Notes: generated by a model from the letters alone, not told the origin. A stretch of 64,000 nt of DNA from Dehalococcoidia bacterium (GCA_003142375.1 PLME01000024.1:1-64000); one strand, 5' to 3'; positions 3,053-61,440 are shown, counted from the first letter of the stretch. Program-made: numbers and translations.

Positions 3053-3310
3053 TTATTTGCCGTACTTCAATTTGGCAAACAGCATTATGCACATTAAAGC
3101 CGAGGAAATGGCATTCCAGATGATCATCGGCATCAGCCCCAGAGAAATACCATAAGCCAGCCAGCAGAGGCCGCCCGCCAGAAACAGCAGAGTGAATGAA
3201 AGGCTTATCTCACGCGCGCTCTTCAATTTGAACAGGCGCCAGACCTGGGGCACGATGCCCAGCGTAATAAATAAGCCTCCACTGAATCCAAGTACTTCTT
3301 GCCAAGTCAA
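3053..3310 (-). CDS. SemiSWEET/PQ-loop family small membrane transporter
   Basis: 85 aa, three TM helices, PQVWRLFKLKSAREISLSF PQ-loop motif. Confidence 0.8.
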   Translation of the reverse strand: MTWQEVLGFSGGLFITLGIVPQVWRLFKLKSAREISLSFTLLFLAGGLCWLAYGISLGLMPMIIWNAISSALMCIMLFAKLKYGK

Positions 3311-3347
3311 AATTGCCGCCTCCTTCCTGTAGATTATAGATCCCCGA

Positions 3348-5111: not shown

Positions 5112-5147
5112 TACTTTTATTTTAGAGCGTTACGTAAGAACGTACAA

Positions 5148-7151
5148 TTAAAAGCCGGTCAAATGTGCTATTTGATATATCAAAATTGCCATTACGAACG
5201 ATACTACAAACTGAAAAGCTACGCTGAAAAGCGGCCAGCGCCAGCCGCCTGTCTCCTGTTTGATAGCTGCCACCGTTGCCACGCAGGGAATAAACAACAC
5301 CTGAAAAACCAGAAAAGATAGCGCGGCGGCAGGCGTCAGGATTTGCTTGAGCTGTTGGGATAGGTCTGTCCCATTTCCACCCAGTAATATGGCTAGGGTA
5401 GCTATGGTGTTTTCCTTGGCGACGAAGCTGGATAAAAGGGCAACCATCATCTGCCAGTTCAGGCCCATCAAGCGTCCTACCGGTTCAATCATTTTTCCGA
5501 ATTGCGCCAGGATACTATCGTTTATATTGCCGTTGGGTATTACCGAAAGCAGCCAGACAACCAGCGAGACTGCCAGGATAATAGTGCCGGCACGTTTTAT
5601 AAAAGCTAAAATGTTTTGCCAGGTAACTATGCCAATCAGCCTCGCATCTGGCACATGATACAAGGGCAACTCCATGATCAAAGCGCCGCTTTCTCCGCGA
5701 ATCACAAAGCGATTCAAAATTATTCCTACCAAAACAAGCATCAACAGGCTGAATATGATGATCCCAATGGAAACCAGCACCGCCTGACTTCCGAAGAAAG
5801 CCGCTGCCACAATAGCTATCACCGCCATCCTCCCCGAGCATGGGACCAGAGGCGTCAATAAAATAGTCAACAGACGGGCACGAGGGGAGTCTATTATGCG
5901 TGTCCCCAGCACGGCAGGAACGTTGCACCCGAAACCCAGCACCAGCGGCAGACACGACTTGCCGTGCAGGCCAAGCAAATGCATGAACCTGTCGGTCACG
6001 AAAGCTGCCCGCGCCGTATAGCCGATATCTTCCATGGCCGCCCATGCAGCAAAAAAGAAGAATAATATGGGGATAAAGGTCAATACGGTTCCCACACCAC
6101 TCAGCAATCCGTCGGCCAGGAAACTCTGGAACCAGATGGGCATAAAAGACAGGTTTCCATATACAAGAGCCCTGCCTTTCTCGATCAGGTTTACTTCTAA
6201 AAACTTCTGGATGGGAATGCCCAGGCTGTAGACCAGCCAGAAAATCAAACCTAAAATCCCGATAAGTATGAGCAGCCCGATTATGGGATGGGTTGCAGCC
6301 CGATCAATTCTTTCCGAAAATGAAACCCAGCCGATATGGGGCTTTTCCTGCGCAACCGCTACCATTTTTTCCACCCATTCGAAACGCAGTGTGGCTATAT
6401 CCACAGCCGCCGACTCATTGTCACCCAGGAAGTCATCCAGAATTCCCCAGCGGTCGGCCGGGCAGCGTTTGCGAATCAGCTTATTGATCTGATCATCGCC
6501 TTCCAGCAGCTTCATGGCAGTCCAGTGCTGAGGATAGGGGGCTGTAATCTCGGGCGTCAATAAACCGGCAACATGGTCTATGGTATCCTTTATCTCGCTG
6601 CCGTACTCAATGTGTTTAACTTCACGTGAGCCGACGGGGCGGTCGTATTCAAGCATTATCTGCTCCACCAGCTCTTTTAAACCCTTGTTTTTATTGGCTA
6701 TAACCGGTACGACGGGCACATTCAAGACAGATGCTAGGGCTTCGGGGTCTATTTTCATGCCCTGCTGATGGGCCACATCGATCATATTCAAAGCTATTAT
6801 CAGGCGCGGCGAAAGCTCAATAAGCTCGGCTACCAGATACAGATTACGCTCCAAACTGGCTGCATTGAGCACAGCTACAACCACATCGGGGTTGTCCTTG
6901 ACCAGATAGTCCCTGGCTATCTGTTCTTCAGCCGAGTTGGCTGTCAGGCTGTAAGTACCGGGCAAATCGACGATGTTTATGTTCCAATTGCCTCGCCTCA
7001 ACACGCCTGTTTTCTGCTCAATTGTCTTGCCGGGCCAGTTGCCTACATGCTGCGACAGGCCGGTCAAGAGGTTGAAGACCGTGCTCTTACCCACATTGGG
7101 AGCGCCTGCCAGCGCCACTACAATTGATTTCTCTTCCGTTTTTTCTAACAT
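5148..7151 (-). CDS. feoB: ferrous iron transport protein B (FeoB)
   Basis: GAPNVGKSTVFNLLTG G1 motif, DLPGTYSL G3, NMIDV G4, FeoB gate domains with CXXP-like segments; 667 aa. Confidence 0.95.
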   Translation of the reverse strand: MLEKTEEKSIVVALAGAPNVGKSTVFNLLTGLSQHVGNWPGKTIEQKTGVLRRGNWNINIVDLPGTYSLTANSAEEQIARDYLVKDNPDVVVAVLNAASLERNLYLVAELIELSPRLIIALNMIDVAHQQGMKIDPEALASVLNVPVVPVIANKNKGLKELVEQIMLEYDRPVGSREVKHIEYGSEIKDTIDHVAGLLTPEITAPYPQHWTAMKLLEGDDQINKLIRKRCPADRWGILDDFLGDNESAAVDIATLRFEWVEKMVAVAQEKPHIGWVSFSERIDRAATHPIIGLLILIGILGLIFWLVYSLGIPIQKFLEVNLIEKGRALVYGNLSFMPIWFQSFLADGLLSGVGTVLTFIPILFFFFAAWAAMEDIGYTARAAFVTDRFMHLLGLHGKSCLPLVLGFGCNVPAVLGTRIIDSPRARLLTILLTPLVPCSGRMAVIAIVAAAFFGSQAVLVSIGIIIFSLLMLVLVGIILNRFVIRGESGALIMELPLYHVPDARLIGIVTWQNILAFIKRAGTIILAVSLVVWLLSVIPNGNINDSILAQFGKMIEPVGRLMGLNWQMMVALLSSFVAKENTIATLAILLGGNGTDLSQQLKQILTPAAALSFLVFQVLFIPCVATVAAIKQETGGWRWPLFSVAFQFVVSFVMAILIYQIAHLTGF

Positions 7152-8059
7152 GTTCTCGTATCTGGATAAATAATGATTTTCTCAGCCAGGTCCCGTCCCA
7201 GGGCAACCTCTGTATCGTGAACCTTGACCAGCACGGGACCGCTGCTGAAATTCTCCATCATCTTCACCATGCTGCCCGGTGTAAAACCCAGTGATAGGCA
7301 GCGTCCCAGCGAACTGCGTCCGCTCCCACAAGACCGAATGACCCCGGAATGGCCGCTGGCTAATTTACTGAGCGGCATATCCTCCTTGGTGACCGCTTCC
7401 CTGGTTTTAGACAACGGCCTTGCCAGCAGTACACCTGCCATCTCACTGTTAATCGAAATGTTTTTCCCTCCGGCCTCTATATCGATCGTGCCATCTTTAT
7501 TTTTTCTAACGATTGTTATAGGAATACCCGGCCGCAAACCCAATTTTTCTATTTTTCTCAGCAGGGCCGGGTCCTCCCTATCAACTGCCGAAACGCACAG
7601 GGGCTGAGAAGCTTGGTATTTCGACAAGGGGTACATACCCTTTTCATTTATTTTGCCGCTTTTATCGGGAATGGAATGACCGTGCGGACAGGTGTCAACA
7701 TTGCCCAGCACCTGCGAAAGGCCCTCTTCAATCTCCGGGGAGGTGACATGTTCCAGTTTACAAGCTTCTTCATGGACCTTATCCCACTTCATTCCCAGCA
7801 CATCAGTTAAAAACCTTTCCCATAAGCGGTGCCGCCTGATAACTGCTACAGCTTGCTCCCTCCCAAGGTCGGTGAGGACCGCCCCTTTGCTGGCCCTGTA
7901 GTTAATCAAACCTTTGCTTTCCAGGCTGCGCAGCATATCTGTAACAGCCGGGGGCGAGACCTTTAAATCCTCGGCCAGGGTAGACGTGGCGACCGGCTTC
8001 TCGGTTCTCTGCCTCTTATATATAGCTTCCAGGTATTCTTGCGTCCTTTCGCTTTCCAT
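7145..8059 (-). CDS. DtxR/MntR-family metal-dependent regulator fused to FeoA/SH3-like C-terminal domain(s)
   Basis: N-terminal winged helix (SERTQEYLEAIYK..VSPPAVTDMLRSLESKGLI), dimerisation/metal domain (HVTSPEIEEGL..CPHGHSIP), two FeoA-like SH3 segments; overlaps feoB start; AGGAGGG RBS just upstream. Confidence 0.88.
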   Translation of the reverse strand: MESERTQEYLEAIYKRQRTEKPVATSTLAEDLKVSPPAVTDMLRSLESKGLINYRASKGAVLTDLGREQAVAVIRRHRLWERFLTDVLGMKWDKVHEEACKLEHVTSPEIEEGLSQVLGNVDTCPHGHSIPDKSGKINEKGMYPLSKYQASQPLCVSAVDREDPALLRKIEKLGLRPGIPITIVRKNKDGTIDIEAGGKNISINSEMAGVLLARPLSKTREAVTKEDMPLSKLASGHSGVIRSCGSGRSSLGRCLSLGFTPGSMVKMMENFSSGPVLVKVHDTEVALGRDLAEKIIIYPDTRTC

Positions 8060-8073
8060 GGGTCCCTCCTACA

Positions 8074-8105
8074 AATTAAGCCAGCTTAATTAAGCTGGCT
8101 TAATT
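8074..8105. promoter_or_regulatory. 32-bp perfect palindrome, candidate operator of the DtxR-FeoA regulator
   Basis: AATTAAGCCAGCTTAATTAAGCTGGCTTAATT equals its own reverse complement; starts 15 bp upstream of the regulator start codon; consists of two overlapping 18-bp palindromes. Confidence 0.8.
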
Positions 8106-8149
8106 ATGACACCGTTGTCGAAATAACGCAAACTGCGCTGGCAAATTAC

Positions 8150-8168
8150 TTGCAGAATATTTCTGCAA
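8150..8168. repeat. inverted repeat TTGCAGAA-TAT-TTCTGCAA in the divergent intergenic region
   Basis: 8-bp perfect arms with a 3-nt spacer, read directly. Confidence 0.55.
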
Positions 8169-8279
8169 CCAAACAATGCTATTTCAGTTATACGTATGAA
8201 AGTATATGCTGTTTGATGACCAGACTTTGACATGATAAGACAAATTTTCTTACACTACATCAAACAAAAAGGAAATAAG

Positions 8280-9011
8280 ATGAATAAATTGTGCACACTT
8301 CTATTCCCTGTTTCGGCGGCCTTTATATTAATAGCAGCCGCCTGTTCATCAGCCCCGCTGCCGGCTGCGACACAGCCCCCAGCCAGCGAACCGGCCTCTC
8401 AGCCATCGGCCGAACCCCCTGTCATTAAGGGGATAGTAGGGATCCTGGAATGGGCCCCCTCTTCGAAGGGTCCAATTAGCTGCGTGGCCAAGGACCCGAT
8501 GGGCACCAACCTGACCTATAGCTGGTCGGTCGACAAGGGAACACTGGAAGGCCAGGGCCCGCAGGTAACATGGACGGCACCTAATACCGTCGGGGATTAC
8601 ACAGTAACCGTTATAGTGACCAATGAAGCCGGAGCTCAGGCAACGCAAAGCAGGACCTTCAGCGTCGTTTCGAATCCCCTGCGTAACCAGGTTGAAGACA
8701 ATACGATTTACTTAAAGTTTACACTGCCGTCCCAGGGTCCTGTGACGGTCTCCAAGCGGGTCAGGTATGATACCGTTTCAGACATACAATGTACCTTCCC
8801 CAATGCAGACCCGAACCAGATTACAATAGTGTGGTCTGCTCCGGTGGGCAAGCTCTTTGGCGATGGCATAGCAGAAGGTAAAGCCAGCCGGGTGGGCTGG
8901 TTGCCACCGGGAGTGCCGGGACAATACACGGTAAACGTTCAAATCAAGGACAACCTTGGCCGTACGGCGACTGGACAAGTTAATTTCGATGTTTATCTCA
9001 TGGACCAGTAG
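8280..9011 (+). CDS. lipoprotein with two Ig/PKD-like domains
   Basis: Start taken at internal ATG (MNKLCTLLFPVSAAFILIAAACSS, lipobox); repeated beta-sandwich-like segments (TYSWSVDKGTLEGQGPQVTWTAP / TIVWSAPVGKLFGDGIAEGKASRVGWLPP). Confidence 0.7.
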   Translation: MNKLCTLLFPVSAAFILIAAACSSAPLPAATQPPASEPASQPSAEPPVIKGIVGILEWAPSSKGPISCVAKDPMGTNLTYSWSVDKGTLEGQGPQVTWTAPNTVGDYTVTVIVTNEAGAQATQSRTFSVVSNPLRNQVEDNTIYLKFTLPSQGPVTVSKRVRYDTVSDIQCTFPNADPNQITIVWSAPVGKLFGDGIAEGKASRVGWLPPGVPGQYTVNVQIKDNLGRTATGQVNFDVYLMDQ

Positions 9012-9047
9012 GATGACCAAATAAAAATTTAAGGAAGCAGTAATTAA

Positions 9048-9467
9048 ATGTGGAAACGAACAGCAATCTGTATGATATATTTTCTTTTCATTATATCCCT
9101 CGTGGCTTCATCCTGTTCGTTTATACAGCAGCAGCCAAAAATAACCTATGATCCCAACAAAACATATGCCGCATTTTTAGTTCTTGACAGTGCCGCCGGC
9201 AAAGCTTCTCTGGAAACCATGAAACAGCACACCCTTGCGGAAGGACTTGAAATCGGCCCGATCGAGTATTACAGCCCGGGCACCAAGGACTTTGAACCGA
9301 TCCTTACCAGGCTTACAACCAATAAGCAAGTAAAACTCGTGTGGATAATCAGCTTGGTTCTGGATGTCCCGCAGATCAAAACAGGTATGTCAAAGTTAAC
9401 GTACGAGGGATCCTATAGATACGCACCCATTATGAATGACGGCAGCCAGATCAAAATTCAACAATAA
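9048..9467 (+). CDS. small putative lipoprotein of unknown function
   Basis: 139 aa, signal peptide with lipobox-like VASSC. Confidence 0.55.
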   Translation: MWKRTAICMIYFLFIISLVASSCSFIQQQPKITYDPNKTYAAFLVLDSAAGKASLETMKQHTLAEGLEIGPIEYYSPGTKDFEPILTRLTTNKQVKLVWIISLVLDVPQIKTGMSKLTYEGSYRYAPIMNDGSQIKIQQ

Positions 9468-9558
9468 TGTTCCCGGGCAGTGCAATAGAATTCTTACACC
9501 CTGCCATATATGACCGGCATAAATTGCTGCGAATCCCTGTTTTGATTAATAATGGAGC

Positions 9559-10635
9559 TTGATGAAAAGGATTGTATTTCTCATCCTGGCTGCATTATTG
9601 GTTGCTTCGTCGGGGCTGGTCGGCTGTTCCGCATTTGCTCCGTATAAACATGAAATAAAATACCTATACGGATTCTGGCCTTACTGGATCGATCCGGGAT
9701 CATATCAACCGGACTGGACTGGCCTGACTCATGTCAGCTATTTTTCCATGGATGCAACAGCCAATGGCGGACTGGATACCCAGTACATAGGCCCTGCCTA
9801 CTATTACATCAGAGAAAAAGCCCATTCTCAAAATGTTAAGATCACACTGACCGTGGCATGTTTCGACTGTGCCGCCCAGGATTCCATACTTGCCTATCAT
9901 CAGGCCGACCTTGTGGATGCCGTACTCACCAAATTGCAGGACTATGCGGCCGATGGTGTTTGCATTGATTTCGAACTGGTAAAGAACACCAATTCGTTGA
10001 CCAGCGGATCCAATACAGTGCTCATGCAGGACCTGATGCTGCTTTTGAATAGCAAACTCAAAAAGGCCAACCCGGACTACGATATTTCTTTTTGTGTGAC
10101 CGGCAATGTAGAAAATGTGTACAGAAACCGTGCCCTGGCCGCATATACAGATGCTGTGTTTTTAATGGGATACGAATATCACTGGTCCAAAGCCCCCGAG
10201 ACCGGCGCTATCTCTCCTTTCGACGACTCCGGGCAGCTGGATGTAAATGAATCAATCGATATACTGAAAAAATGGTATCCTGCGGACAAGCTGATATTGG
10301 GCCTGCCCTTTTACGGCTACGATTGGGCCTGTGATTCACCTGAACCCAGGGCCAAAACCAATGGAGAAGGTGAAATAATAACCATGTACTCGGCTTTGGC
10401 CAGTGCCAAAGATTACGGCAGGTTATGGGATACCAGTTCACATACTCCCTGGTATAAATACCAGTCGCAGGGAACCTGGCATCAATGCTGGTACGAGGAT
10501 AACGAATCGCTGGCCTTAAAATTTAACTACATCAATGCTGCCGGTTTAGCAGGCGCCGGCTTCTGGGCGCTGGGATATGAAGGACCGGACTCACCTGTGT
10601 GGACCCTGGTTAAACAGGCCTTCAACCGCAAATGA
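9559..10635 (+). CDS. glycoside hydrolase family 18-like lipoprotein (chitinase/spore-hydrolase fold)
   Basis: Lipobox LVGC; YGFWPYW..LTHVSYFS; catalytic-strand motif DGVCIDFEL; ..ILGLPFYGYDW.. Confidence 0.82.
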   Translation: MMKRIVFLILAALLVASSGLVGCSAFAPYKHEIKYLYGFWPYWIDPGSYQPDWTGLTHVSYFSMDATANGGLDTQYIGPAYYYIREKAHSQNVKITLTVACFDCAAQDSILAYHQADLVDAVLTKLQDYAADGVCIDFELVKNTNSLTSGSNTVLMQDLMLLLNSKLKKANPDYDISFCVTGNVENVYRNRALAAYTDAVFLMGYEYHWSKAPETGAISPFDDSGQLDVNESIDILKKWYPADKLILGLPFYGYDWACDSPEPRAKTNGEGEIITMYSALASAKDYGRLWDTSSHTPWYKYQSQGTWHQCWYEDNESLALKFNYINAAGLAGAGFWALGYEGPDSPVWTLVKQAFNRK

Positions 10636-25863: not shown

Positions 25864-26535
25864 ATGAAGATTAATGTTATGCAGGACGTATTACAGGCCA
25901 ATGACAGGATTGCCGAAGAAAACAGGCAACTTTTCCGCAAGAACCGCAACCTGGTGCTCAACCTGATGAGCTCACCCGGCGCGGGCAAGACTTCGCTGCT
26001 GGAGAAAACGGCCGAAAAACTGGCCGGCAAGCTCAGGCTCGGCGTTGTAGTCGGAGACCTGGAGACTACCAGGGACGCAGACCGGATCAGTAAATTCAAC
26101 ATCCCGGCCATACAACTCACCACAGGTTCCGCCTGCCACCTGGATGCCAATATGGTAGCCTCAGCTTTGCCTCATTTGCAGCTTGATAAGATAGATATAC
26201 TGGTTGTCGAGAATGTCGGCAACCTGGTGTGCCCGGCCGAATTTATCGTCGGCGAGGACTATAAGATCATGATCCTCAGCGTGACCGAAGGGGACGAGAA
26301 ACCGCTTAAATACCCTCTCATGTTCCATGAGTCGGCCCTGATGCTTATCAATAAGATCGACCTGGTGCAATATACCAACTTCAATCTGGAGGAAGCCCGG
26401 GCTAACGCCCGCAAGATCAATCCCGATATTGACATAATCGAGATCTCCTGCACTAAAGGCACAGGGCTGGATGAATGGATAGCGTGGCTGGAGAAACATC
26501 ACCAGAAAAAACTGGGTGAGCTTTCCCATGCATGA
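25864..26535 (+). CDS. hypB: hydrogenase nickel incorporation GTPase HypB
   Basis: NLMSSPGAGKTSLLEKT; GDLETTRDADRI; NKIDLV; no long N-terminal His-rich stretch. Confidence 0.94.
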   Translation: MKINVMQDVLQANDRIAEENRQLFRKNRNLVLNLMSSPGAGKTSLLEKTAEKLAGKLRLGVVVGDLETTRDADRISKFNIPAIQLTTGSACHLDANMVASALPHLQLDKIDILVVENVGNLVCPAEFIVGEDYKIMILSVTEGDEKPLKYPLMFHESALMLINKIDLVQYTNFNLEEARANARKINPDIDIIEISCTKGTGLDEWIAWLEKHHQKKLGELSHA

Positions 26536-26869
26536 GATGGGCATTGCCCAGAACATCGTCGAAATAGCAGTGGAAGCAGCCAGGAAGGAGGGCGCCTCTA
26601 AAGTCACGCGTATCAACCTTATTTCCGGTGAACTGCGGGGTATCGTGCCTATGCAGCTTACCTTTTGCTTCGGCATTGTCGCCAAAGATACCATGGCCGC
26701 CGGCGCTTACCTGGACATCGAAGAGGTGCCGGTCTCCGGACACTGCAAGAACTGCAACGCCGATTTCTCGGTCGAGGAATATGAATACGTGTGCCCCAAG
26801 TGCGGAAGCCCCAACATAGAGCTCACGGGTGGCACCGAGCTGCGCATAAAAGATATCGAAATAGAATAG
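26528..26869 (+). CDS. hypA: hydrogenase nickel incorporation protein HypA
   Basis: MHEMGIAQNIVEIAVEAA start; zinc motif CKNC..CPKCGS; overlaps hypB 3' end. Confidence 0.94.
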   Translation: MHEMGIAQNIVEIAVEAARKEGASKVTRINLISGELRGIVPMQLTFCFGIVAKDTMAAGAYLDIEEVPVSGHCKNCNADFSVEEYEYVCPKCGSPNIELTGGTELRIKDIEIE

Positions 26870-27085: not shown

Positions 27086-29497
27086 TTAAGCAGCATTATC
27101 CCTTGCAGTAAGCGCTCTCTGAGTAAATTCTATCTCTTCACTGGTAACCGTCTGGCGCATCTTTTCAAGCTCGTGCATTATCTGGGCAAAGCGAGGACCT
27201 TCGGCGGCGCTTATCCACTCAAGCTGCAGCCTTTCGGGCCTGATTCCCAGCTTTTCCATGGCGTCCCACATCCTGTCCGCCCTCCTCTGGGTTGAATGGT
27301 TGGCGGTAATATAGTGGCAATCGCCGATATGGCAGCCGGAGAGCAGCATAAGGGGCGCTCCCAGCTTGAAGGCATGCCAGATAAAGCGCTCTGTAACGCG
27401 TGCACTGCACATGACCCTTATAAACCGGTTATTAGCCGGATACTGCATCCTGGAGATGCCGGCCACATCGCTGGCTGCATAGCTGCACCAGTTGCACAGG
27501 AAGGTGATAATCTTGTTTTGCGGGTTGGTAGCCAGGGCCGAGCTGATCTGGGCAAGGATCTGGTCTTCCATGAAGTGGTGAATGGATATGGCATCGAAGC
27601 GGCATTCGGCCGAACAGGCGCCACAGCCTGCGCAGGCAGCTACAATTATTTTTGCCCCGCTCTTGGCCTTAATATCCACCTCGATGGCATTGTAAGGGCA
27701 AACCCTGGCGCACACCCCGCAGGAGGTGCACTTTTCCTGATCGACAAATGCTTTTACTCCATCACCCTTGATAAAGTCGGCATTGAGGATAATTGAGCTG
27801 CGGGATACGGCGGCGCTGGCCTGGGTGACGCTGTCCTTAATATCCTTGGGCGCCTCCACAGAGCCTGCGAAAAATATACCCGGCGTTGGGGCATCCACCG
27901 GCTTCAATTTGGGATGCGCCTCCATCACAAAACCGTCCGAGGTCAGCGAGATATTCAGCAGGTTGCACAACTTCTTGAGCCCACTGTCCTGGTGTAATCC
28001 TACGGATAGCACCAAAAGGTCCAGCTCATATTCTTCCACCTCGCAGGTGGTAGTATTTTCCACGCGCACCTTGATATTACGGCTTACCGGGTCCTCGGTC
28101 ACTTCACCCGGGAAGCCACGTATGTAATGCACTCCCTCTTCCTGCGACCTTTTGTAAAGGTCTTCAAACCCCTTGCCGTAAGCACGGATATCCATGTAAA
28201 ACACATATATCTCGGTATCGGGATGATGCTCTTTAATCAGCAGGCTGTCTTTAATGGTATTCATACAGCAGACGTTGGAGCAGTAGGGGTTGCCCCGGTT
28301 GGCCGTACGGGAACCCACGCATTGGATGAAGCCGATGCGATTTGGCACGTTACGGTCGGTGGGACGCAAGATCTGCCCCTCGGTCGGCCCGCCGCCGCAG
28401 ATAAGGCGTTCGAACTCCATGGTAGTTATCACATTTTCAAAGCGTGTATAGCCGTACTCATCCAGCACGGTCGGATCGTAGATATCCATCCCCGTGCACA
28501 TGATAATGGCGCCCACTTTTATCTCGATCTCTTTGTCCGCCATATTCAGATCGATGCATTTCTTTTCGCAAACTTCCACGCATTTATTGCACCTGACGGG
28601 ATTATTGCCCAGACAGTTCTTCATGTCGATCATATATGCCGGCGGCACGGCCTGCGGGAAGGGGATGAAAGCCGCTTTGCGTGAAGAAAACCCCTGCTGG
28701 AATTCATCGGGCACTACCACGGGGCAGACTTCGGCGCATTTGCCGCAGGAGTTGCATTCCAGCTCATTAACGTAGCGGGCTTTTTTATTTATAACAACTG
28801 TGTAGTTTCCAATATAGCCCGTAACCTTGGATATCTCGCTGAAGGCTATCAACTCAATATTAGGATGTTTGCCGGCGTCCATCATCTTGGGGCCCAGCAC
28901 GCATATTGAACAGTCCATTGTTGGAAAGGTCTTATCCAGTTGGTCCATTATCCCGCCGATAGAAGGCTGACGTTCAACCAGGTAGACCTTATGCCCGGAA
29001 TCAGCCAGGTCCAGCGCGGCCTGAATGCCTGCAACCCCTGCCCCGATGACCAGCGCTGCGTCCGTAACCGGGATTTTCATTTCCTCAATAGGCTGCAGCA
29101 GCCTTGCTTTGGCCACGGCCATTTTGACAATATCCATGGCTTTTTCGGTAGCCGCCTTTTTATCATGCAGGTGCACCCAGCTGCAATGCTCACGGATATT
29201 GGCCATCTCCAGCAGGTAGGGATTCATGCCTGCTTTGTTGATGCAGTTGCGGAAGGTCGTCTCATGCATCCTGGGTGAACACGAAGCGACCACTACGCGG
29301 TCGAGGTTGTGCTCATGGATACATCTCTTGATTTCTTCCTGGCCGGGGTCAGAGCACGTATATTTATTTCTCATGGCTACTACGACACCCGGAACGGTGG
29401 AGGCCATCTCTTTAACAGCTTCACAATCCACTGAACCGGCGATGTTCATGCCGCAGTCGCATATAAAAACGCCTACTCTATTGCTTGCTTCTTCCAA
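27086..29497 (-). CDS. HdrA-like FAD/Fe-S protein with C-terminal MvhD domain
   Basis: GVFICDCGMNIAGSVD; VIGAGVAGIQAALDLADSGHKVYLVE; several CxxCxxCxxxC clusters; C-terminal FLCNWCSYAASDVAG..GCHIGDCHY MvhD/FrhD-type segment. Confidence 0.93.
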   Translation of the reverse strand: MEEASNRVGVFICDCGMNIAGSVDCEAVKEMASTVPGVVVAMRNKYTCSDPGQEEIKRCIHEHNLDRVVVASCSPRMHETTFRNCINKAGMNPYLLEMANIREHCSWVHLHDKKAATEKAMDIVKMAVAKARLLQPIEEMKIPVTDAALVIGAGVAGIQAALDLADSGHKVYLVERQPSIGGIMDQLDKTFPTMDCSICVLGPKMMDAGKHPNIELIAFSEISKVTGYIGNYTVVINKKARYVNELECNSCGKCAEVCPVVVPDEFQQGFSSRKAAFIPFPQAVPPAYMIDMKNCLGNNPVRCNKCVEVCEKKCIDLNMADKEIEIKVGAIIMCTGMDIYDPTVLDEYGYTRFENVITTMEFERLICGGGPTEGQILRPTDRNVPNRIGFIQCVGSRTANRGNPYCSNVCCMNTIKDSLLIKEHHPDTEIYVFYMDIRAYGKGFEDLYKRSQEEGVHYIRGFPGEVTEDPVSRNIKVRVENTTTCEVEEYELDLLVLSVGLHQDSGLKKLCNLLNISLTSDGFVMEAHPKLKPVDAPTPGIFFAGSVEAPKDIKDSVTQASAAVSRSSIILNADFIKGDGVKAFVDQEKCTSCGVCARVCPYNAIEVDIKAKSGAKIIVAACAGCGACSAECRFDAISIHHFMEDQILAQISSALATNPQNKIITFLCNWCSYAASDVAGISRMQYPANNRFIRVMCSARVTERFIWHAFKLGAPLMLLSGCHIGDCHYITANHSTQRRADRMWDAMEKLGIRPERLQLEWISAAEGPRFAQIMHELEKMRQTVTSEEIEFTQRALTARDNAA

Positions 29498-31095: not shown

Positions 31096-34000
31096 TCATA
31101 TTTCTGCCGGGCACAGGAATGATTTCAATGTGGCGCCGATTGTACTGTTATCCTGTCCGCACAGGTAAATAGCCCCTGTCGGGCATACGCTGGCACAAGC
31201 GCCGCAGCGCGTGCACAGGTAACGTTCAAGATACGAATGCAGCAGCCCATTGGCTCCCTCCCGCATTTCGATCAACGGGCACTGCTCAATGCAGGTCAGG
31301 CAGCTCCTGCAGAGTGCCGTATTGACCTGCGCCGCAGAAGCCCGCATGGTAATCCAGTTTGAACGGAGGTACAGCAGTATCCCGGCGGCCAGGGCAACGC
31401 CCTGTGCACTCTCATCCCGTTTTTCATTGCCCGTTAAATGTGAATTGACAAAAAGGCCGGCCCTGTTGAGGGCCGATGCATACTTACTGAGATTGAATTT
31501 CGCTCCAGTAGCTCCGGCCCCCGTTTCGGAGATCAAACGCTGAAATAACCTGCCGGTATAGGTATAGCCCAATTTATCGAGGTCAGACTGCTTCAGGGTT
31601 GCATCAACGACTATGGCGCCGGCTTTTACCACCTCATTCCTGTCAGGGAAACCCAGCTTTATATGATATTCACCGGGGTGACCGCCTATCTCCAGAGAAT
31701 CAGGCACCTGGGTTATCTGAAAGACCTTGCAGCCGAGAACTTCCAGAGTCATGGCAGCGATCTTGCTGGTACCCGAGTCACCGATAAAAAGCGCCGCCGG
31801 GTTAATCGGCTGACGTTCGTATTTTTGATGGCGGGACGGAGCGACCAGTGCTGAGGCCTCAATCATTTTACGGGCTTTATCCGTCGCGGACTCCCGGTTG
31901 TCACTATGCGCCCAGGCACACAGCTCCCTGATGTTGACATACTCGATATCCGCATTACCTTGACCGGCAATATGACGGTTAAGGTACTTGCGGCTGAGAA
32001 TACGCCTGTCGTTGCAGCTATAACAGACCTGGTCGTAATTGCAGCACCTGCAAGCCGCTACTACGGCGTGGTCCAGGCCGGCTTCTTTCCAGCGCTCCGC
32101 TATGACCTGTGCTCCTTCTTCTGTACAGGCCTGCTCTATCTCGGATATATGTGCAATATTCAATTTCGCAGAACTGAAGCTGAGCAGCCTGTCGAAGTCT
32201 ATAACCGAGCTATTCTCACCATTGCAGCGGCACAGGAATATGCCCTGCCTGCTTTCCGACCGGGCATGATCATGATGGTGGGTGGGATGATAACCCGCTT
32301 CAGCTTGATCGTTGCCGTCAAACGGGCCCACGGATAATTTGTCGAGGAAATCAATGTCCGAATCCAGGATGGTCTGCATAACAGCGGACATGAGTTTAAG
32401 GTTCACATCGCTCCCCGATTGGCCTGGTCCCGGGTCGATTAAATATATACCGTCCTTGCCGGTCACCAAACTTTCCTCTTTCACACTTATGCCATCAGCA
32501 GGGAATTTCAGGATAACATCCGCTTCCACATCCTTATGTCTTACGGTGTCATCGTGTCTGATGGCATTTGATTTACACACCTTGACGCACTCAAGGCATT
32601 CGCTGCACAAGGCGCAGCTCAGGCATCTTTGCGTCTCTTCCACCACCATCTCGGCTGAGAAACCCGTCGTCGTTTCCTCATAGGTATTTTTCCTGCTTTC
32701 CATATCCAGGTAAGGCATCTCCGCACGTTTGACGGGAAAGGCCCATACCGAGTTTAAATCCACTTCCGCTATCTTTCTGGACTCAATTTGCCTGCCCTGT
32801 TCCAGATCGGAACCGGACAGATACCTGTCAATAGATTCCGCAGCTTTCAGGCCGTCGGCCATGGCTTCCACCACATTGTTGGGGCCTCGCATACAATCGC
32901 CACCGGCAAACACGCCGGGTAAATTGGTCGCCAGCGTGAGCGGGTTGACCCTGATCGTGCCTGACCTTTTCTCGATGTTAAGGCCGTCGAGGTTCAACTG
33001 CGTTGCATCAGCCGACTGCCCTATAGCAACGATCACATGGTCGGCCTCGATAATGAAATCGGTCCCCTCCACAGGCTCCGGCCTGTGCCAGCCGTTGCGC
33101 ATCAGCTCATCGGTCAACTTCGTCCGGCAGAAGCGTACCCCTTCTACCCTGTTTTTATTTTCCAGTATTTCCAATGGATAGGCTGAGTACTCTATGGAAA
33201 CGCCCTCTTCCAGTGCTTCCTCAATCTCATCCGCAGATGCCGTCAATTCTTCGGGCACGGTCCAGCTTACGATTTTAACGCTGCCTTTATTCTGTCTGAT
33301 AGCTGCCCGGGCCGAATCGACGGCGCTGTTGCCGTCGCCGATAATAACGATGTTCGAGCCTATAAACACGTCATCGGTAAGGTTGAGCGTCAACAAGAAT
33401 GACATACAATCTATGACACCTGACAACTCCTCGCCCGGTATACCCAGTTTGTTGTTTCTGGACGCGCCGATAGCCAGGAAAAAGGCCTTGTAGTCACGTT
33501 CCTTCAAATAAGCGAAATCTATATCCCGGCCGACCGTGATACCGGTCCTGATCTTGATTCCCATGGCCAGCAATTGACCCAGCTCCCGCTCTCGGATCTC
33601 CCTGGACAATCTGAACCTGGGGATGCCCGTGGCCAGCATTCCGCCGATAACGTTATGTGATTCAAAAATAGTGGGGTCATAGCCCCTGCGTTTAAGGTCC
33701 CAGGCAGCCATAAGGCCCGCCGGGCCGCTGCCTATAATAGCGATTTTACTTTTAGACGTGGGAACAGCCGGTACGGCGCCTTTTCCGGCAGGTGTAATAA
33801 CATTGTCGTAGGCATAGCGATGCAACGACCTGATGGAGACAGCACTGTCGATTTTAGCCCGGCTGCACTTGCTTTCGCAGGGATGTTTGCACAACCGTCC
33901 CAGGATCCCGCCCAGCGGAGCAAACCCGTTGATCAGATCGTAGGCCTCCTGAACCTTGTTGTTGGCCAGCAGCGATACAAATCCCTGAACGTTAATACCC

Positions 34001-34470
34001 AGCGGACACGAGGCGCGGCAGGGTGAAATCTCGTTCTTATCAATGACCATGGTCGACGGCACTGACTTATTACCCGGAAACGGTTTATGAACTGCGCTCA
34101 ATATTACGTTCTTGCCGTCACTGGTCTTTGTCAGCCTGGTGGAACAGTTCTCCTCGCATCTCTTACAACCGGTACAGAGATCGCTGTCTATATATCTCAA
34201 TTTCTGAGTAGTCTTTATATTGAAATTGCCTTTGGCGCCGCTTATGTCGGCGGAGGAAGTGCTGTAGACAAATTCGATGGAGGGGTCCTGAATGGCATTC
34301 AAAACGGTTGACCAGAACAGCCTGGGTTCCACCCCGCTGGAGTCAAAGAAAGCAAAAGCGGGCAAATCGGTGATGAGTTTTACCTGTGCGCCTATTTTGG
34401 CCAGATAGAGCGCAGCCTGCAGCGCATCAATATTGCTGCCTATAACTGCGGCGCGTTTGCTTTTCCCCAT
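31096..34470 (-). CDS. 1124-aa chimeric flavo-iron-sulfur protein: GltD/NfnB-like NAD(P)H module plus HdrA-like segments and terminal ferredoxin
   Basis: CRASCPLGINVQGFVSLLANNKVQEAYDLI / CKHPCESKCSRAKIDSAVSIRSLHRYA / AIIGSGPAGLMAAWDLKRRGYDPTIFES (GltD type); later GIFLCRCNGENSSVIDFDRL..VVAACRCCNYDQ..VNIRELCAWAHSDNRESATDKARKMI (HdrA N-terminal type); C-terminal CRSCLTCIEQCP..CTRCGACASVCPTGAI. Confidence 0.88.
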   Translation of the reverse strand: MGKSKRAAVIGSNIDALQAALYLAKIGAQVKLITDLPAFAFFDSSGVEPRLFWSTVLNAIQDPSIEFVYSTSSADISGAKGNFNIKTTQKLRYIDSDLCTGCKRCEENCSTRLTKTSDGKNVILSAVHKPFPGNKSVPSTMVIDKNEISPCRASCPLGINVQGFVSLLANNKVQEAYDLINGFAPLGGILGRLCKHPCESKCSRAKIDSAVSIRSLHRYAYDNVITPAGKGAVPAVPTSKSKIAIIGSGPAGLMAAWDLKRRGYDPTIFESHNVIGGMLATGIPRFRLSREIRERELGQLLAMGIKIRTGITVGRDIDFAYLKERDYKAFFLAIGASRNNKLGIPGEELSGVIDCMSFLLTLNLTDDVFIGSNIVIIGDGNSAVDSARAAIRQNKGSVKIVSWTVPEELTASADEIEEALEEGVSIEYSAYPLEILENKNRVEGVRFCRTKLTDELMRNGWHRPEPVEGTDFIIEADHVIVAIGQSADATQLNLDGLNIEKRSGTIRVNPLTLATNLPGVFAGGDCMRGPNNVVEAMADGLKAAESIDRYLSGSDLEQGRQIESRKIAEVDLNSVWAFPVKRAEMPYLDMESRKNTYEETTTGFSAEMVVEETQRCLSCALCSECLECVKVCKSNAIRHDDTVRHKDVEADVILKFPADGISVKEESLVTGKDGIYLIDPGPGQSGSDVNLKLMSAVMQTILDSDIDFLDKLSVGPFDGNDQAEAGYHPTHHHDHARSESRQGIFLCRCNGENSSVIDFDRLLSFSSAKLNIAHISEIEQACTEEGAQVIAERWKEAGLDHAVVAACRCCNYDQVCYSCNDRRILSRKYLNRHIAGQGNADIEYVNIRELCAWAHSDNRESATDKARKMIEASALVAPSRHQKYERQPINPAALFIGDSGTSKIAAMTLEVLGCKVFQITQVPDSLEIGGHPGEYHIKLGFPDRNEVVKAGAIVVDATLKQSDLDKLGYTYTGRLFQRLISETGAGATGAKFNLSKYASALNRAGLFVNSHLTGNEKRDESAQGVALAAGILLYLRSNWITMRASAAQVNTALCRSCLTCIEQCPLIEMREGANGLLHSYLERYLCTRCGACASVCPTGAIYLCGQDNSTIGATLKSFLCPAEI

Positions 34471-35050: not shown

Positions 35051-35899
35051 CTATTTTTTAGTCGGTTTCCTGGCCCTTTCGGCCACCACACCCAGGCTGC
35101 CGTGCAGGGTGGGACGATCGACATCGATAAATTTCCCCACGATTATGGGGCCGTTCTGCGTGATATCCACCTCTTTGGGATCGGCGCCGTTCTTGATGAT
35201 GCTCCTCTTCTCATAGCTCTTGAGCGAATCAAGCCCTTCGGGCTCTTTATTCATGCGGCCGTACACGGCAGGACAGGGACTGATAACCTCTACGAAGGAA
35301 AAGCCGGGCTTCAATAGTGCCTCCGTAATGGTGCCTTCAAGCTGATGCAGGTGCAATACCGTCCACCTGGCAATATACGTGGCGCCGCTGGCATACAGCA
35401 GCAACGGCAGGTTGAAAGGCGGCTCAAAATTGCCATAGGGTGTGGTGGAGGTGCGCACGTCGTAGGGAGCAGTGGGCCCAACCTGGCCTCCGGTCATGCC
35501 GTAGTTAAAGTTATTAATGCAGATAACCGTCATATCAATATTGCGGCGGGCGGCATGGATGAGGTGGTTTCCGCCAATAGCAGCCAGATCACCGTCGCCC
35601 GAAAAAACCACGACCTTCAACTCGGGATTGGCCAGCTTCAGACCCGTTGCGAACGGGATGGCGCGCCCGTGCGTAGTATGGAAGGAATCGAGTTTCACAT
35701 ACCCGGCTACGCGTCCCGAGCAGCCAATGCCCGAAACAACGGAAATTTTATCAGGGTCCAGCCCCGATTTATCGATGGCCCTTAAGAAGCAATTCAAGGC
35801 AGGCCCTATACCGCAGGCCGGGCACCAGATGTGCGGCAGCCTGTCCTGCCTGAGGTATTTGGCTATCAGGGAATGCCCGTCGGCTTCATGATCAGGCAT
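35051..35899 (-). CDS. korB: 2-oxoacid:ferredoxin oxidoreductase beta subunit (TPP-binding)
   Basis: WCPACGIGPALNCFLRAI; HTTHGRAIPFATGLKLANP; VVFSGDGDLAAIGGNHLIHAARRN. Confidence 0.92.
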   Translation of the reverse strand: MPDHEADGHSLIAKYLRQDRLPHIWCPACGIGPALNCFLRAIDKSGLDPDKISVVSGIGCSGRVAGYVKLDSFHTTHGRAIPFATGLKLANPELKVVVFSGDGDLAAIGGNHLIHAARRNIDMTVICINNFNYGMTGGQVGPTAPYDVRTSTTPYGNFEPPFNLPLLLYASGATYIARWTVLHLHQLEGTITEALLKPGFSFVEVISPCPAVYGRMNKEPEGLDSLKSYEKRSIIKNGADPKEVDITQNGPIIVGKFIDVDRPTLHGSLGVVAERARKPTKK

Positions 35900-37043
35900 G
35901 GCACTCCTTAATGGCAGCTAATATTGTTTCCGGCCTGTGCACATCGCCACCCGAGTGTGGAAGCGAGACGCTGCGGGCTTTGCCGCAGGAACATCTTTCG
36001 ACCTCATATACAATTTGCCCGCGGTTTATCTCTGGCACTATAAACGTCTTAACCTGTGAGGCCAGCTCACGGACACGTTTTTCGGCGAAGGGCCACAGGG
36101 TGATGAGCTGCAAAAACCCGGCCTTGATGCCCTTCTGTCGCGCCAGTTTAACAGCGTACCTGGCAATACGGGAGGTTATCCCGTAAGCGCAGACCACTAT
36201 GTCGGCATCGTCGGTCATATATTCATCATACATGATGATATCATCAGCATGGAGCCTAATTTTATCTATCAGCCTGGTGACCAGCTTGTCCTGAGCTGCA
36301 GCAGTCATGGCGGGATAACCACGCTCATCGTGCGTCAGACCGGTGACGTGAAAACGATATCCCTGCCCGGCGATGGCCATAGGGGGCACCAGGCTCTCGT
36401 CCGCCTTGTAGGGATGATAGGCGCCAGCACCGATTTGCGGCATTTTCCTGTAAATCAGGTCGGCCGCTGAGATCTGCGGGATCACCACCTTTTCACTCAT
36501 ATGCCCTACAACCTCATCTGACATCATCAATACCGGCACACGGTATTTTTCCGAGAGGTTGAAGGCCTTGACGGTCAGGTCGAACATGTGCTGAGGGGAA
36601 TCCGGGCTAAGTGCTATGATCTCATAGCTGCCGTGAGATCCCCAGCGGGCCTGCATGATATCCTGCTGACCGACCAGCGTCGGCAGTCCGGTGGAAGGCC
36701 CCGCCCGCTGAATATTCACCACCACACAGGGTGTCTCCAACATGACTCCCAGCCCGATGTTTTCCATCATCAGGCTGAAGCCGGGCCCAGAGGTAGATGT
36801 CATCGATTTAACGCCCGCCCATGAAGCGCCCAGTATGGCATTCATAGAGGCGATCTCATCTTCCATCTGGATATAAGTGCCTCCGATGGCAGGCAGGCGG
36901 CGGCTCATCCTTTCGGCTATCTCGGTGGCGGGGGTGATGGGATAGCCGGCAAAGAACCTGCAGCCGGCGCTTATAGCTCCCTCGGCGCAGGCTACGTCGC
37001 CGTTAATGAAAAACTCACCCAAAAGGTGCCCGTTTTCTGTCAT
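35892..37043 (-). CDS. korA: 2-oxoacid:ferredoxin oxidoreductase alpha subunit
   Basis: GDVACAEGAISAGCRFFAGYPITPATEIAE; TSTSGPGFSLMMENIGLG; overlaps korB start. Confidence 0.92.
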   Translation of the reverse strand: MTENGHLLGEFFINGDVACAEGAISAGCRFFAGYPITPATEIAERMSRRLPAIGGTYIQMEDEIASMNAILGASWAGVKSMTSTSGPGFSLMMENIGLGVMLETPCVVVNIQRAGPSTGLPTLVGQQDIMQARWGSHGSYEIIALSPDSPQHMFDLTVKAFNLSEKYRVPVLMMSDEVVGHMSEKVVIPQISAADLIYRKMPQIGAGAYHPYKADESLVPPMAIAGQGYRFHVTGLTHDERGYPAMTAAAQDKLVTRLIDKIRLHADDIIMYDEYMTDDADIVVCAYGITSRIARYAVKLARQKGIKAGFLQLITLWPFAEKRVRELASQVKTFIVPEINRGQIVYEVERCSCGKARSVSLPHSGGDVHRPETILAAIKECHA

Positions 37044-37128: not shown

Positions 37129-37410
37129 TTACGGCTTAATTTCCGAATGGGCCTTATTATTGATGGTTAGCTTGACGGCGAATTCCGGGCATATCAACTC
37201 GCAGAACCCACAGGCCAGGCACTTGCTGCCGTCTTTGACCACTGCCAGTTGGTATCCCTTGGAGCTAAGCTCCGAACCCATCTTGAGCACATCGCGTGGG
37301 CAGTATTCAGCGCAGAAACCGCACCCTTTGCATCTCTCCCTGTCAATAAATACATATGCCAGAGGTTCGGCAGAATGGTTATGGTCGAAAGGTGTGCGCC
37401 ACAGCTTCAT
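37129..37410 (-). CDS. korD: 2x[4Fe-4S] ferredoxin subunit (KorD-like)
   Basis: CKGCGFCAEYCPRDVL and CLACGFCELICPEFAV. Confidence 0.88.
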   Translation of the reverse strand: MKLWRTPFDHNHSAEPLAYVFIDRERCKGCGFCAEYCPRDVLKMGSELSSKGYQLAVVKDGSKCLACGFCELICPEFAVKLTINNKAHSEIKP

Positions 37411-58299: not shown

Positions 58300-61200
58300 G
58301 TGCCCAAGATAACCTCTATTGAAGAGTTAACTAAAGTAAAAAAAACAGTCGAGCCCCGGCTAAAAATTCGCGAGGATGCGAATTTCAGTCATTTCAAAGC
58401 CACCCCCGAGATCTGCATTCAGCAGTGCAGGGGTATGGGCTGCACCGCTGCCGGCGGCGATAAGGTTACAGAGTTATTTGAAGACCTCATTAAGAAGAAG
58501 GGCCTTGATAGCAAGATAAATATCGTCAGGACAGGCTGCCTCGGCCCCTGCGAAATGGGCCCCACAGTCATCGTCAATCCCGGCGATATACTCTACGTGA
58601 GGGTCAAACCCGAAGACGTACAGGAAATATTTGATAAGCACATCATGCAAGGCGAAGTGGTTGAAAGGCTGGTCTATCACGATCCCACTACTAACAAAGC
58701 CGTACCCGAGCGCCTTAAGATCAACTTCCTGGCCGACCAGGAGTTCCGCATCCTGCATAATAACGGCATCATCGACCCCTGGAATATCGAAGAGTACATA
58801 GCTCGCGGCGGTTACGAAGCCCTGGCTAAAGCCCTCTACAAAATGAAGCCCGACGATATCCTGGAAGAGGTCAAGAAATCAGGCCTGCGCGGCAGAGGCG
58901 GCGCAGGCTTCCCAACAGCTACCAAATGGGGCTTTCTGAAGAGCTCGCCCGGCACTGTTAAATACCTGGTTTGCAACGGCGACGAGGGCGACCCCGGCGC
59001 ATATATGAACCGTGCCGTGCTGGAAGGCAATCCCCACTCTATCATCGAAGGCATGGCGCTGGGCGCCTATGCCGTCGGCAATGTCAAGCAGGGATTCGCC
59101 TATATACGTGCCGAATATCCTCTGGCCATCGAGACCCTGAGCGCGGCTATCGCACAGGCACGTGACTATGGCCTGCTCGGCAAGAACATCCTCGGCACTG
59201 ATTTTGAATTCAACCTGGATATCTTCCCCGGCGCCGGCGCTTTCGTCTGCGGCGAGGAAACAGCCCTGCTAATCTCCATCGAAGGCAAACGCGGCATGCC
59301 CAGGCAAAGGCCACCCTTCCCCTCCGACAAAGGCCTTTTCGGCAAGCCCACCGTTATCAATAACGTTGAGACCTGGTCGATCATCCCGCGAATTATTCGC
59401 GAGGGTTCCGACTGGTTCGCCAGTGTAGGCAGCGAGAAGAGCAAGGGCACCAAGTCATTCAGTCTGGTAGGCAAAGTTAACAACGTAGGGCTGGTAGAAG
59501 TCCCGCTGGGCACCAGCCTCGGCAAAATAGTATTCGACATCGGCGGCGGCGTCCCCAATGGTAAGAAATATAAGGCCACCCAGATGGGCGGCCCCTCGGG
59601 TGGTGTTATCCCCATCGAGCACATCAACGTCCCGGTCGACTATGAGTCGGTAACGGCTCTGGGCGCTATCATGGGATCAGGCGGCCTCGTAGTTATGGAC
59701 GAGGACAACTGCATGGTTGATATCGCCAAGATGTTCCTGGGCTTCACGAGAGACGAGTCCTGCGGCAAATGCGTGCCCTGCCGTGCCGGCATCCCCAAGC
59801 TGCTGGCCATATTGAACAATGTCACCAACGGCACGGCTACACTGCAAGACATTGATACACTGCAGGAGCTGGGGGAGATGATACAGAATGCATCGATATG
59901 CGGCCTGGGCCAGACAGCTCCCAATCCGGCAATCTCCACCATCCGGCACTTCCGTGAAGAGTATGAATCACACATCATCGATAAGAAATGCCCGGCTTCA
60001 CTGTGCCAGGCTTTGTTCAAAGCTCCCTGCCAGCACACGTGCCCGGTAGGATTGAACGTGTACGGTTACATAGCCTTAATCAAGGAAGGCAGGCCGGCAG
60101 ATGCTTACAAGCTCATGAGCCAGAGGCTGCCGTTGCCGATGACAGTCGGCAGGGTTTGCCCGCATCCCTGCGAAAGCAAATGCCGCAGGGGGCAGGTTGA
60201 TGAGCCTATCTCTATCAGGCATCTCAAGAGGTATGCGGCCGATTTTGCATACGAGCATAACCTTTCATATATACCTGAGATCAAAGGCAATAAAGCCGAA
60301 AAGGTGGCCGTCATAGGCGCAGGCCCCGCCGGTCTATCGGCAGCCTGGGACCTGGCAGTCGAAGGCTACAAGGTAACTATCTTCGAATCCTTGCCCGTAG
60401 CAGGCGGTATGCTTGCAGTGGGTATCCCCGAATACAGATTGCCCAAGGATATCCTAAATAAAGAAATCGACAATATCAAAAAACTGGGCATTGAGATTAA
60501 GCTTAATACTCCGGTTAATGATATCGATGCTCTATTCAAGGACGGATTCAAGGCCGTTTTCGTAGGTATTGGCGCTCACAAAGGCGACAAAATGGGCATC
60601 CCCGGCGAGGACCTTGCCGGTGTCTACGATGCCATTGATTTCCTGAGGAATATCAACCTCGGCAAGCCAGTCGAGGTCGGCAAGAAAGTGGCCGTGGTCG
60701 GCGGCGGCAACTCCGCCATTGATGCAGCCCGCGTTGCGATCCGCAAGGGCGCCCAGGAAGTACATATCGTATACCGTAGGGAGAAAGTGGATATGCCCGC
60801 TGAAGCAGAAGAAATTGCTGCTGCAGAGGAAGAAGGAATCAAACTGCATGTCCTGGCAGCCCCGGTCAAGGTGATCGGCAAGGACGGCAAGGTCGCCGCC
60901 ATCGAGTGCTCCAGAATGGCGCTGGGCGATTTTGACAAGAGCGGACGGCGCTCACCCAAACCCATTCAGGGTTCTGAATTCACCATTGAGGTAGATATGC
61001 TTATAGAGGCCATTGGCCAGAGGCCGGATACCTCTTCAATGAAACTCGGCGCTGCTAAGATCGGAAAGGGCGGCAGACTGGTTGCCGACAAGAGGACCCT
61101 TGCTACTGAGCAGAAGGGTGTTTTCGTAGGCGGCGACGCCTTCACCGGCCCCTGGACGGTTATTGAAGCCATAGCTTCCGGCCAGAGGGCAGCTTCATCG

Positions 61201-61440
61201 ATCAAGAGATACCTGAACGGCAAGGACCTGGGGCCAAGAGTGGACCGTCAAGACCCTGAAACCATCGATTACAACCACATTCCTCCCACCGACGAAGAGA
61301 CGAGTGAAAGGTCCAGGGTTAAACTTTCAGAGATCCCTCTGCCCGAAAGGAAGTCTTCCTTTAAAGAATGCATCGTCAACTATAACGCCAAGCAAGCTAA
61401 AGAAGAATGCAGCAGATGCCTGAGATGCGATATTGGATAG
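58300..61440 (+). CDS. NuoF/HoxF-like NAD/FMN/Fe-S subunit fused to GltD/NfnB-like NAD(P)H oxidoreductase module
   Basis: NuoF: [67 protein letters not shown]; GltD: [82 protein letters not shown]; GTG start. Confidence 0.93.
   Translation: [1046 protein letters not shown]

Follow-up and report, generated by a model that had tools for sequence, protein, structure and literature searches.

Two shrunken HdrA units in tandem carrying an inserted NAD(P)H module: a conserved fusion protein of a Kor–Hdr operon from an uncultured Dehalococcoidia bacterium

What could an uncultured anaerobe do with a protein in which an NAD(P)H-handling flavoprotein is embedded in pieces of HdrA, the flavin subunit of heterodisulphide reductase (Hdr)? 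The question is raised by a 64,000-nucleotide stretch of DNA from a Dehalococcoidia bacterium (GCA_003142375.1 PLME01000024.1:1-64000; "the window" below means this whole stretch), in which positions 31096-34470 of the minus strand form one uninterrupted frame of 1124 amino acids (aa), the fusion protein of an operon that also encodes a 2-oxoacid:acceptor oxidoreductase (Kor) and other Hdr proteins. The fusion is a tandem of two HdrA units, both shrunken, and an intact GltD module of the StnC/NfnABC type lies inside the ferredoxin insert of the first unit. The original prediction, made from the sequence alone, had read it as an HdrA paralogue that had acquired an NAD(P)H-oxidizing flavoprotein; the HdrA descent and the insert were both borne out, but the single HdrA has become two reduced ones.

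The fusion was confirmed to be a real, conserved protein belonging to an enzyme cluster of an uncultured anaerobe. Genomes that were assembled independently encode orthologues whose domains follow the same order from one end to the other, at 85%, 66% and 40-48% identity, and the alignment of full-length orthologues comprises 38 rows from Dehalococcoidia, Anaerolineae and deltaproteobacterial metagenome-assembled genomes (MAGs). The opposite (plus) strand has many stops across 31096-34470, the GC content of the region is uniform (0.47-0.56), and the ATG of the fusion begins one base past the korC stop (TGAAATG). The original prediction had allowed for a frameshift or an assembly join between two genes; the search for the same domain order in other genomes, which gave the 38 full-length orthologues, showed neither. 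It is therefore next to impossible that a gltD gene and pieces of hdrA were joined artificially, and the full-length orthologues rule such an artefact out. What speaks for it is one relative (L025/L044) whose frame changes in the linker, giving open reading frames (ORFs) of 728 and 360 aa; however, the frame runs unbroken in L045, whose GltD module is almost the same as that of L044, so that a true gene split in L044 is doubtful and the frame change may be a sequencing error. The draft of the source genome measures 2.1 Mb, with a completeness of 92%. The family counts and trees reported here cover the fetched loci; of 449 candidate contigs, the best 80 were retrieved. The parts of the fusion, in the order of the protein, are as follows.

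34027..34470 (-), first part of pseudo-HdrA unit 1, residues 1-148; strands in Rossmann order, but without GxGxxG
32791..34026 (-), inserted GltD/StnC-like NAD(P)H:FAD module, residues 149-560; PF14691, PF07992
32551..32637 (-), six-Cys Fe-S block, residues 612-640; C616, C619, C622, C625, C628 and C632, all 38/38
32356..32550 (-), putative remainder of HdrA unit 1 (from its second half), residues 641-705; from alignment and secondary structure
32254..32355 (-), HHHDHA linker, not conserved; low confidence in the model (709-738)
31816..32253 (-), HdrA N-terminal Fe-S domain of pseudo-HdrA unit 2, residues 740-885; nine invariant Cys
32014..32052 (-), CxCCx5CxxC family motif, C807-C819; in 46/46 family members and 0/85 other HdrA N-domains
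31336..31815 (-), shrunken Rossmann/flavin domain of pseudo-HdrA unit 2, residues 886-1045; from hhalign and Foldseek
31099..31335 (-), C-terminal HdrA-type 2x[4Fe-4S] ferredoxin, residues 1046-1124; PF00037/PF13237, Cys 37-38/38

All the parts that the original prediction had named were found, namely the Rossmann-like N-terminus, the C99-C102-C105-C109 cluster, the GltD unit and the six-Cys block (C616-C632) and, in the C-terminal half, the HdrA N-terminal-like block, the degenerate Rossmann block and the 2x[4Fe-4S] C-terminus. The His-rich linker is there as well, but as it is not conserved among the orthologues it was dropped as a meaningful feature.

In BLAST, residues 1-148 match residues 148-291 of the complete HdrA encoded in the window and residues 141-298 of 5odc_A, that is, from the Rossmann fold into the inserted ferredoxin, of which one [4Fe-4S] site is kept (C99/C102/C105/C109, Cys in 38/38). 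The insertion falls in this inserted-ferredoxin region: the similarity to HdrA runs to HdrA residue 291, and GltD starts at residue 149. Residues 641-705 look like the end of the unit 1 flavin domain, its last strands and its helix, with about 190 aa lost in between, an equivalence that we in part infer. Unit 2 carries both the HdrA N-terminal Fe-S domain and the C-terminal 2x[4Fe-4S] ferredoxin. A profile of 41 relatives covering residues 740-1124 was aligned by hhalign with HdrA 4-657 at 100% probability, with about 275 residues skipped. Because the GltD module dominates a full-length Foldseek search, the C-terminal half was given a model and a search of its own; its AlphaFold model (a monomer without cofactors, like all the models used) has a pLDDT of 82, and its seven best Foldseek matches are all HdrA chains (E 5e-18 to 1e-16), while the eighth has E 6e-4 and probability 0.33. 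The NCBIfam HdrA models match 41/41 family members, the window's member far under their cut-offs.

What the two HdrA units have kept is the Fe-S wiring, and what they have lost is the flavin/bifurcation segment. Among the Cys positions sampled across the 38 rows, 31/32 are invariant and the remaining one is present in 37/38. At the site of the HdrA GxGxxG motif the window's protein reads GSNIDA in unit 1 and GDSGTS in unit 2, and the second Gly of the unit 1 motif is gone in 34/38 rows. The segment bearing E356 and K409 (5odc_A numbering), named as functional residues for HdrA bifurcation (PMC12054007), is missing from both units. No equivalent of Cys197 was found: the aligned region of unit 1 holds no CSIC-like site in the 38 rows, and in unit 2 the region itself is absent (hhalign). 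The FAD GxGxxG of the GltD module, by comparison, is present in 38/38 rows. Since this motif is kept while the E356/K409 segment and the HdrA motifs are lost, the fusion most likely binds one FAD per chain, in the GltD module, and would have no bifurcating HdrA flavin.

The best solved relatives of the GltD module are 9bov_A, 9n5u_A, 4ylf_B and 8oh5_C, with NfnABC and StnC closest. The original prediction of a GltD/NfnB-like NAD(P)H-FAD unit was thus right about the unit but needs correcting as to the nearest likeness, as the module is nearer to the non-bifurcating StnC/NfnABC type than to NfnB. Fusion and StnC/NfnABC (8oh5, 9bov, 9n5u) share the same GltD fold and the short Fer4_20 Cys set (C151/C155/C194/C198/C202 in the fusion), but in StnC/NfnABC the GltD sits with a NuoG-like domain, and in the fusion on HdrA scaffolds. 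The GltD domain of StnC is an NADPH port feeding an Fe-S chain, and its FAD is non-bifurcating (PMC10482914). A search of plasmids with the fusion gave matches at the level of GltD alone, none spanning 80% of the query.

The main clue to function is the operon, with a complete HdrA downstream, which was absent from the original prediction. The order korD-korA-korB-korC-[fusion]-mvhD-hdrCB-hdrA, read leftwards in the window (where hdrA is fused to a second mvhD), is conserved in relatives. The genes flanking the fusion are the following.

37129..37410 (-), korD-like 2x[4Fe-4S] ferredoxin, 93 aa; ORF, with a homologue upstream of the fusion in 29/31 loci
35892..37043 (-), korA, 2-oxoacid:acceptor oxidoreductase alpha subunit; PRK08659, 571 bits (cut-off 411)
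35051..35899 (-), korB, TPP subunit; PF02775, PRK09628
34472..35020 (-), korC, gamma subunit; PF01558
30661..31080 (-), mvhD-like electron-transfer subunit; PF02662
29498..30649 (-), hdrCB fusion (HdrD/TfrB-like) with two CCG domains; PF02754 in two stretches, Fer4, NCBIfam TfrB-like under cut-off
27086..29497 (-), full-length hdrA with a second MvhD fused; NF040770, 1146 bits, over cut-off

Where sequence was available, the family loci have korA and korB upstream in 36/36 cases and korD in 29/31, and downstream mvhD (separate or fused) in 40/40, hdrCB in 37/38 and hdrA in 23/24; korC is separate in 25/36 loci and joined to korB in others. In five loci (L049, L050, L062, L073, L078) MvhD is fused onto the C-terminus of the fusion protein, which suggests that the two are in contact. 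The C-terminal ferredoxin of the fusion was considered as a missing KorD and rejected, given the separate korD ORF at 37129-37410. The complete HdrA, encoded three genes downstream of the fusion, keeps GxGxxG, E363/K416 (equivalent to E356/K409) and Cys199 (equivalent to Cys197) in the alignment to 5odc_A. In 18 relatives (L058, L060-L063, L066, L068-L071, L073, L074, L076-L079, L082, L104) the codon of the partner hdrA that corresponds to Cys197 is an in-frame TGA (DCSI* or ECSI*), where the window's copy has Cys. This is consistent with a predicted selenocysteine, and the solved structure 9sfi_A has X at the Cys197 position.

We give an even chance to the reading that the fusion is a non-bifurcating Fe-S wire and the NAD(P)H-input subunit of a bifurcating or confurcating KorABCD-HdrA-HdrCB-MvhD complex. 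NAD(P)H would exchange hydride with the single FAD of the GltD module, from which electrons would travel one at a time along the Fe-S sites of two flavin-less HdrA scaffolds and reach the separate complete HdrA via MvhD. The latter would split or merge electrons between a high-potential disulphide at HdrCB and a low-potential, ferredoxin-level branch serving KorD/KorABC, and the tandem pseudo-HdrA would sit where the usual HdrA dimer has its second HdrA. In the favoured direction, NAD(P)H oxidation and disulphide reduction would drive the formation of 2-oxoglutarate from succinyl-CoA by reductive carboxylation; the opposite, confurcating direction is nearly as likely. A physical Kor–Hdr complex is suggested by the gene order and the MvhD fusions; complex formation, the order and direction of electron transfer, 2-oxoglutarate as substrate and the single FAD are all features that we infer.

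More tentatively still, the system may be an undescribed electron-bifurcating 2-oxoglutarate synthase (Kor–Hdr) with a scattered distribution among uncultured lineages of Chloroflexota and deltaproteobacteria. Its tandem HdrA, flavin-dead and serving as a dedicated Fe-S wire that carries an exchangeable NAD(P)H module, would couple NAD(P)H oxidation and disulphide reduction to CO2 fixation inside a single complex. If so, a family of HdrAs would have given up the bifurcating flavin and kept the wiring, a natural experiment that parts scaffold from catalytic role. In energy-limited anaerobes, moreover, 2-oxoacid carboxylation would be tied directly to NAD(P)H and a thiol pool, a link first put forward for tubeworm symbionts, whose NADH module is a different one, and CxCCx5CxxC would be a simple genomic marker for such complexes.

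The direction of electron flow is where the strongest rival arises. It is possible, if short of an even chance, that the complex confurcates: Kor would oxidize a 2-oxoacid, dithiols would be oxidized at HdrCB, and HdrA would merge the electrons from both sources, with NAD(P)+ reduced at the fusion's GltD module. Identical anatomy fits this reading, Hdr-type complexes are treated as reversible (PMC12054007, PMC9012536), and the family includes deltaproteobacterial MAGs of other lifestyles. On the other side stands the content of the source genome, which encodes a CdhC/AcsB homologue and gave no match to the citrate synthase family PF00285 (Re-citrate synthase was not searched for); this combination leans towards a biosynthetic, reductive need for 2-oxoglutarate. 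The genome also has two Iso_dh-family genes and five other POR_N ORFs, two of which score best as PorA, two as VorB, and one is unclassified, so that the operon Kor, with alpha, beta, gamma and ferredoxin subunits all present, is the best candidate of the 2-oxoglutarate type. The gene content thus leans towards 2-oxoglutarate synthesis without proving that role. A search for reductive dehalogenases gave no match, but the controls were equally without match.

Two further alternatives concern the fusion itself. The FAD of its GltD module might bifurcate as in NfnB, so that the complex would bifurcate at two sites, an idea put forward for the HdrA-NfnB proteins of ANME archaea. NfnB (4ylf_B) is indeed a close relative, and the Arg near the FAD N5 is invariant (R287), yet this residue is present in StnC too. 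We hold such a site to be improbable: at the cluster-ligand position 217, where NfnB has Glu and StnC has Lys, the 19 rows of the window's clade all have His and the remaining 19 have Lys, with Glu in none (0/38); NfnABC and the non-bifurcating StnC match best; and no NfnA/PyrK-like gene was found among the operon genes by domain and family models. It is less probable still that the fusion is a decaying protein, devoid of electron transfer and retained merely as a scaffold. The loss of motifs and of roughly 190-275 residues from both HdrA flavin domains would agree with decay, but the invariance of the Cys ligands and of the GltD FAD motif across phyla argues for maintained electron transfer.

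Some observations weigh against the favoured reading, that of a single-FAD wire feeding a 2-oxoglutarate synthase. As the GxGxx(G/A) motif, absent from the window's protein, occurs in unit 2 in 24/38 rows, some relatives may still bind flavin there. The NAD(P) site reads SWT in the window's clade in place of the YRR of most relatives, which makes the preference for NADH or NADPH uncertain. Family scores point to 2-oxoglutarate as the Kor substrate, but KorA scores over the cut-off of the generic 2-oxoacid model and under that of the 2-oxoglutarate model. DsrC, a candidate disulphide partner, was not found in the 92%-complete genome, and hence no substrate is assigned to HdrCB. Finally, every family locus that has a record title stems from a MAG.

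Relatives with one or other of these features are known. The "heterodisulfide reductase/glutamate synthase fusion" HdrL of Desulfobacterium autotrophicum HRM2 was described in 2009 (PMC2702500), HdrA9-11 of ANME-1 have NfnB-like insertions (PMC9012536), and GltD-inserted HdrA was classed as type III HdrA in 2025 (PMC12054007). The remark in the original prediction that the architecture is no standard named subunit is correct for the whole protein, but HdrA with a GltD/NfnB domain, common to all of these and the fusion, had been described already. Type III HdrA shares with the fusion the position of GltD inside the inserted-ferredoxin region, and HdrL shares an adjoining mvhD. However, type III HdrA is described as otherwise complete and bifurcating, whereas both flavin domains of the fusion are shrunken, and unlike type III HdrA and HdrL the fusion has tandem units, the CxCCx5CxxC N-domain and korDABC in its operon. 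Two HdrA units per chain are likewise known from type II HdrA and the Moorella MetFV-HdrABC-MvhD system (PMC9012536, PMC12054007), which are proposed to act as their own heterodimer; in them the FAD residues are retained, and the N-domain and Cys197 are shared out over the two units, while neither unit of the fusion has a Cys197 equivalent. In tubeworm symbionts and Thioflavicoccus, korABCD/tfrAB are interspersed with FlxABCD-HdrABC, and direct electron supply from Flx-Hdr to the 2-oxoglutarate oxidoreductase was proposed from the genomes in 2019 (PMC6315080). Kor genes thus lie beside an NAD(P)H-linked Hdr in both cases (NADH there), but the input is FlxABCD there and a GltD module in a pseudo-HdrA here. 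No description of the flavin-poor tandem form with its fixed Kor operon was found in text searches of an open-access library, and priority is not claimed.

The family is held together by its N-domain. In the tree of HdrA N-domains it forms one clade (100/99; 200/200 bootstrap trees), and CxCCx5CxxC separates its members from the other HdrA N-domains of the fetched loci with the counts given above, a labelling that is not fully independent because some members were assigned partly by their best match to the window's N-domain. The family GltD modules, in contrast, are not one clade (AU p 1e-78; 2.5e-7 without the long-branch pair), although the long branches L080, L021, L022 and L084 limit the detail of the trees. 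A single GltD insertion inherited throughout the family is rejected on current data, and the contrast between the two trees points to exchanges of the NAD(P)H module at one common insertion site. Longer HdrAs (about 1490-1580 aa) share the domain order of the family but have both flavin domains in full; they are encoded in the source genome itself (L022) and in those of relatives (L033, L040, L101, L110, L113). Judging from domain order, the family looks like a reduced form of these longer, complete GltD-inserted tandem HdrAs. It is uncommon, being present in 23/393 sampled genomes of the class and in 13/220 good-quality ones.

Further loci of interest were noted. An Ardenticatenales operon (L070) has two tandem fusion genes (3282-6440 and 6510-9902) with different GltD lineages. 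Contig C25 of the source genome (L021, L022) has a 1492-aa GltD-inserted tandem HdrA and a split version of 909 and 577 aa, an architecture from which the fusion probably descends. In the window, hypB/hypA-like hydrogenase maturation genes, recognized from their translations alone, adjoin the hdrA end on the opposite strand (25864-26869). Farther away, a NuoF-GltD fusion (58300-61440) is followed by a NuoG/HoxU-like gene (61453-63405) and, at and past the window end (to C19:65327), by the small and large subunits of a [NiFe] hydrogenase. Together these genes resemble an NAD(P)-linked hydrogenase or a Stn-like complex.

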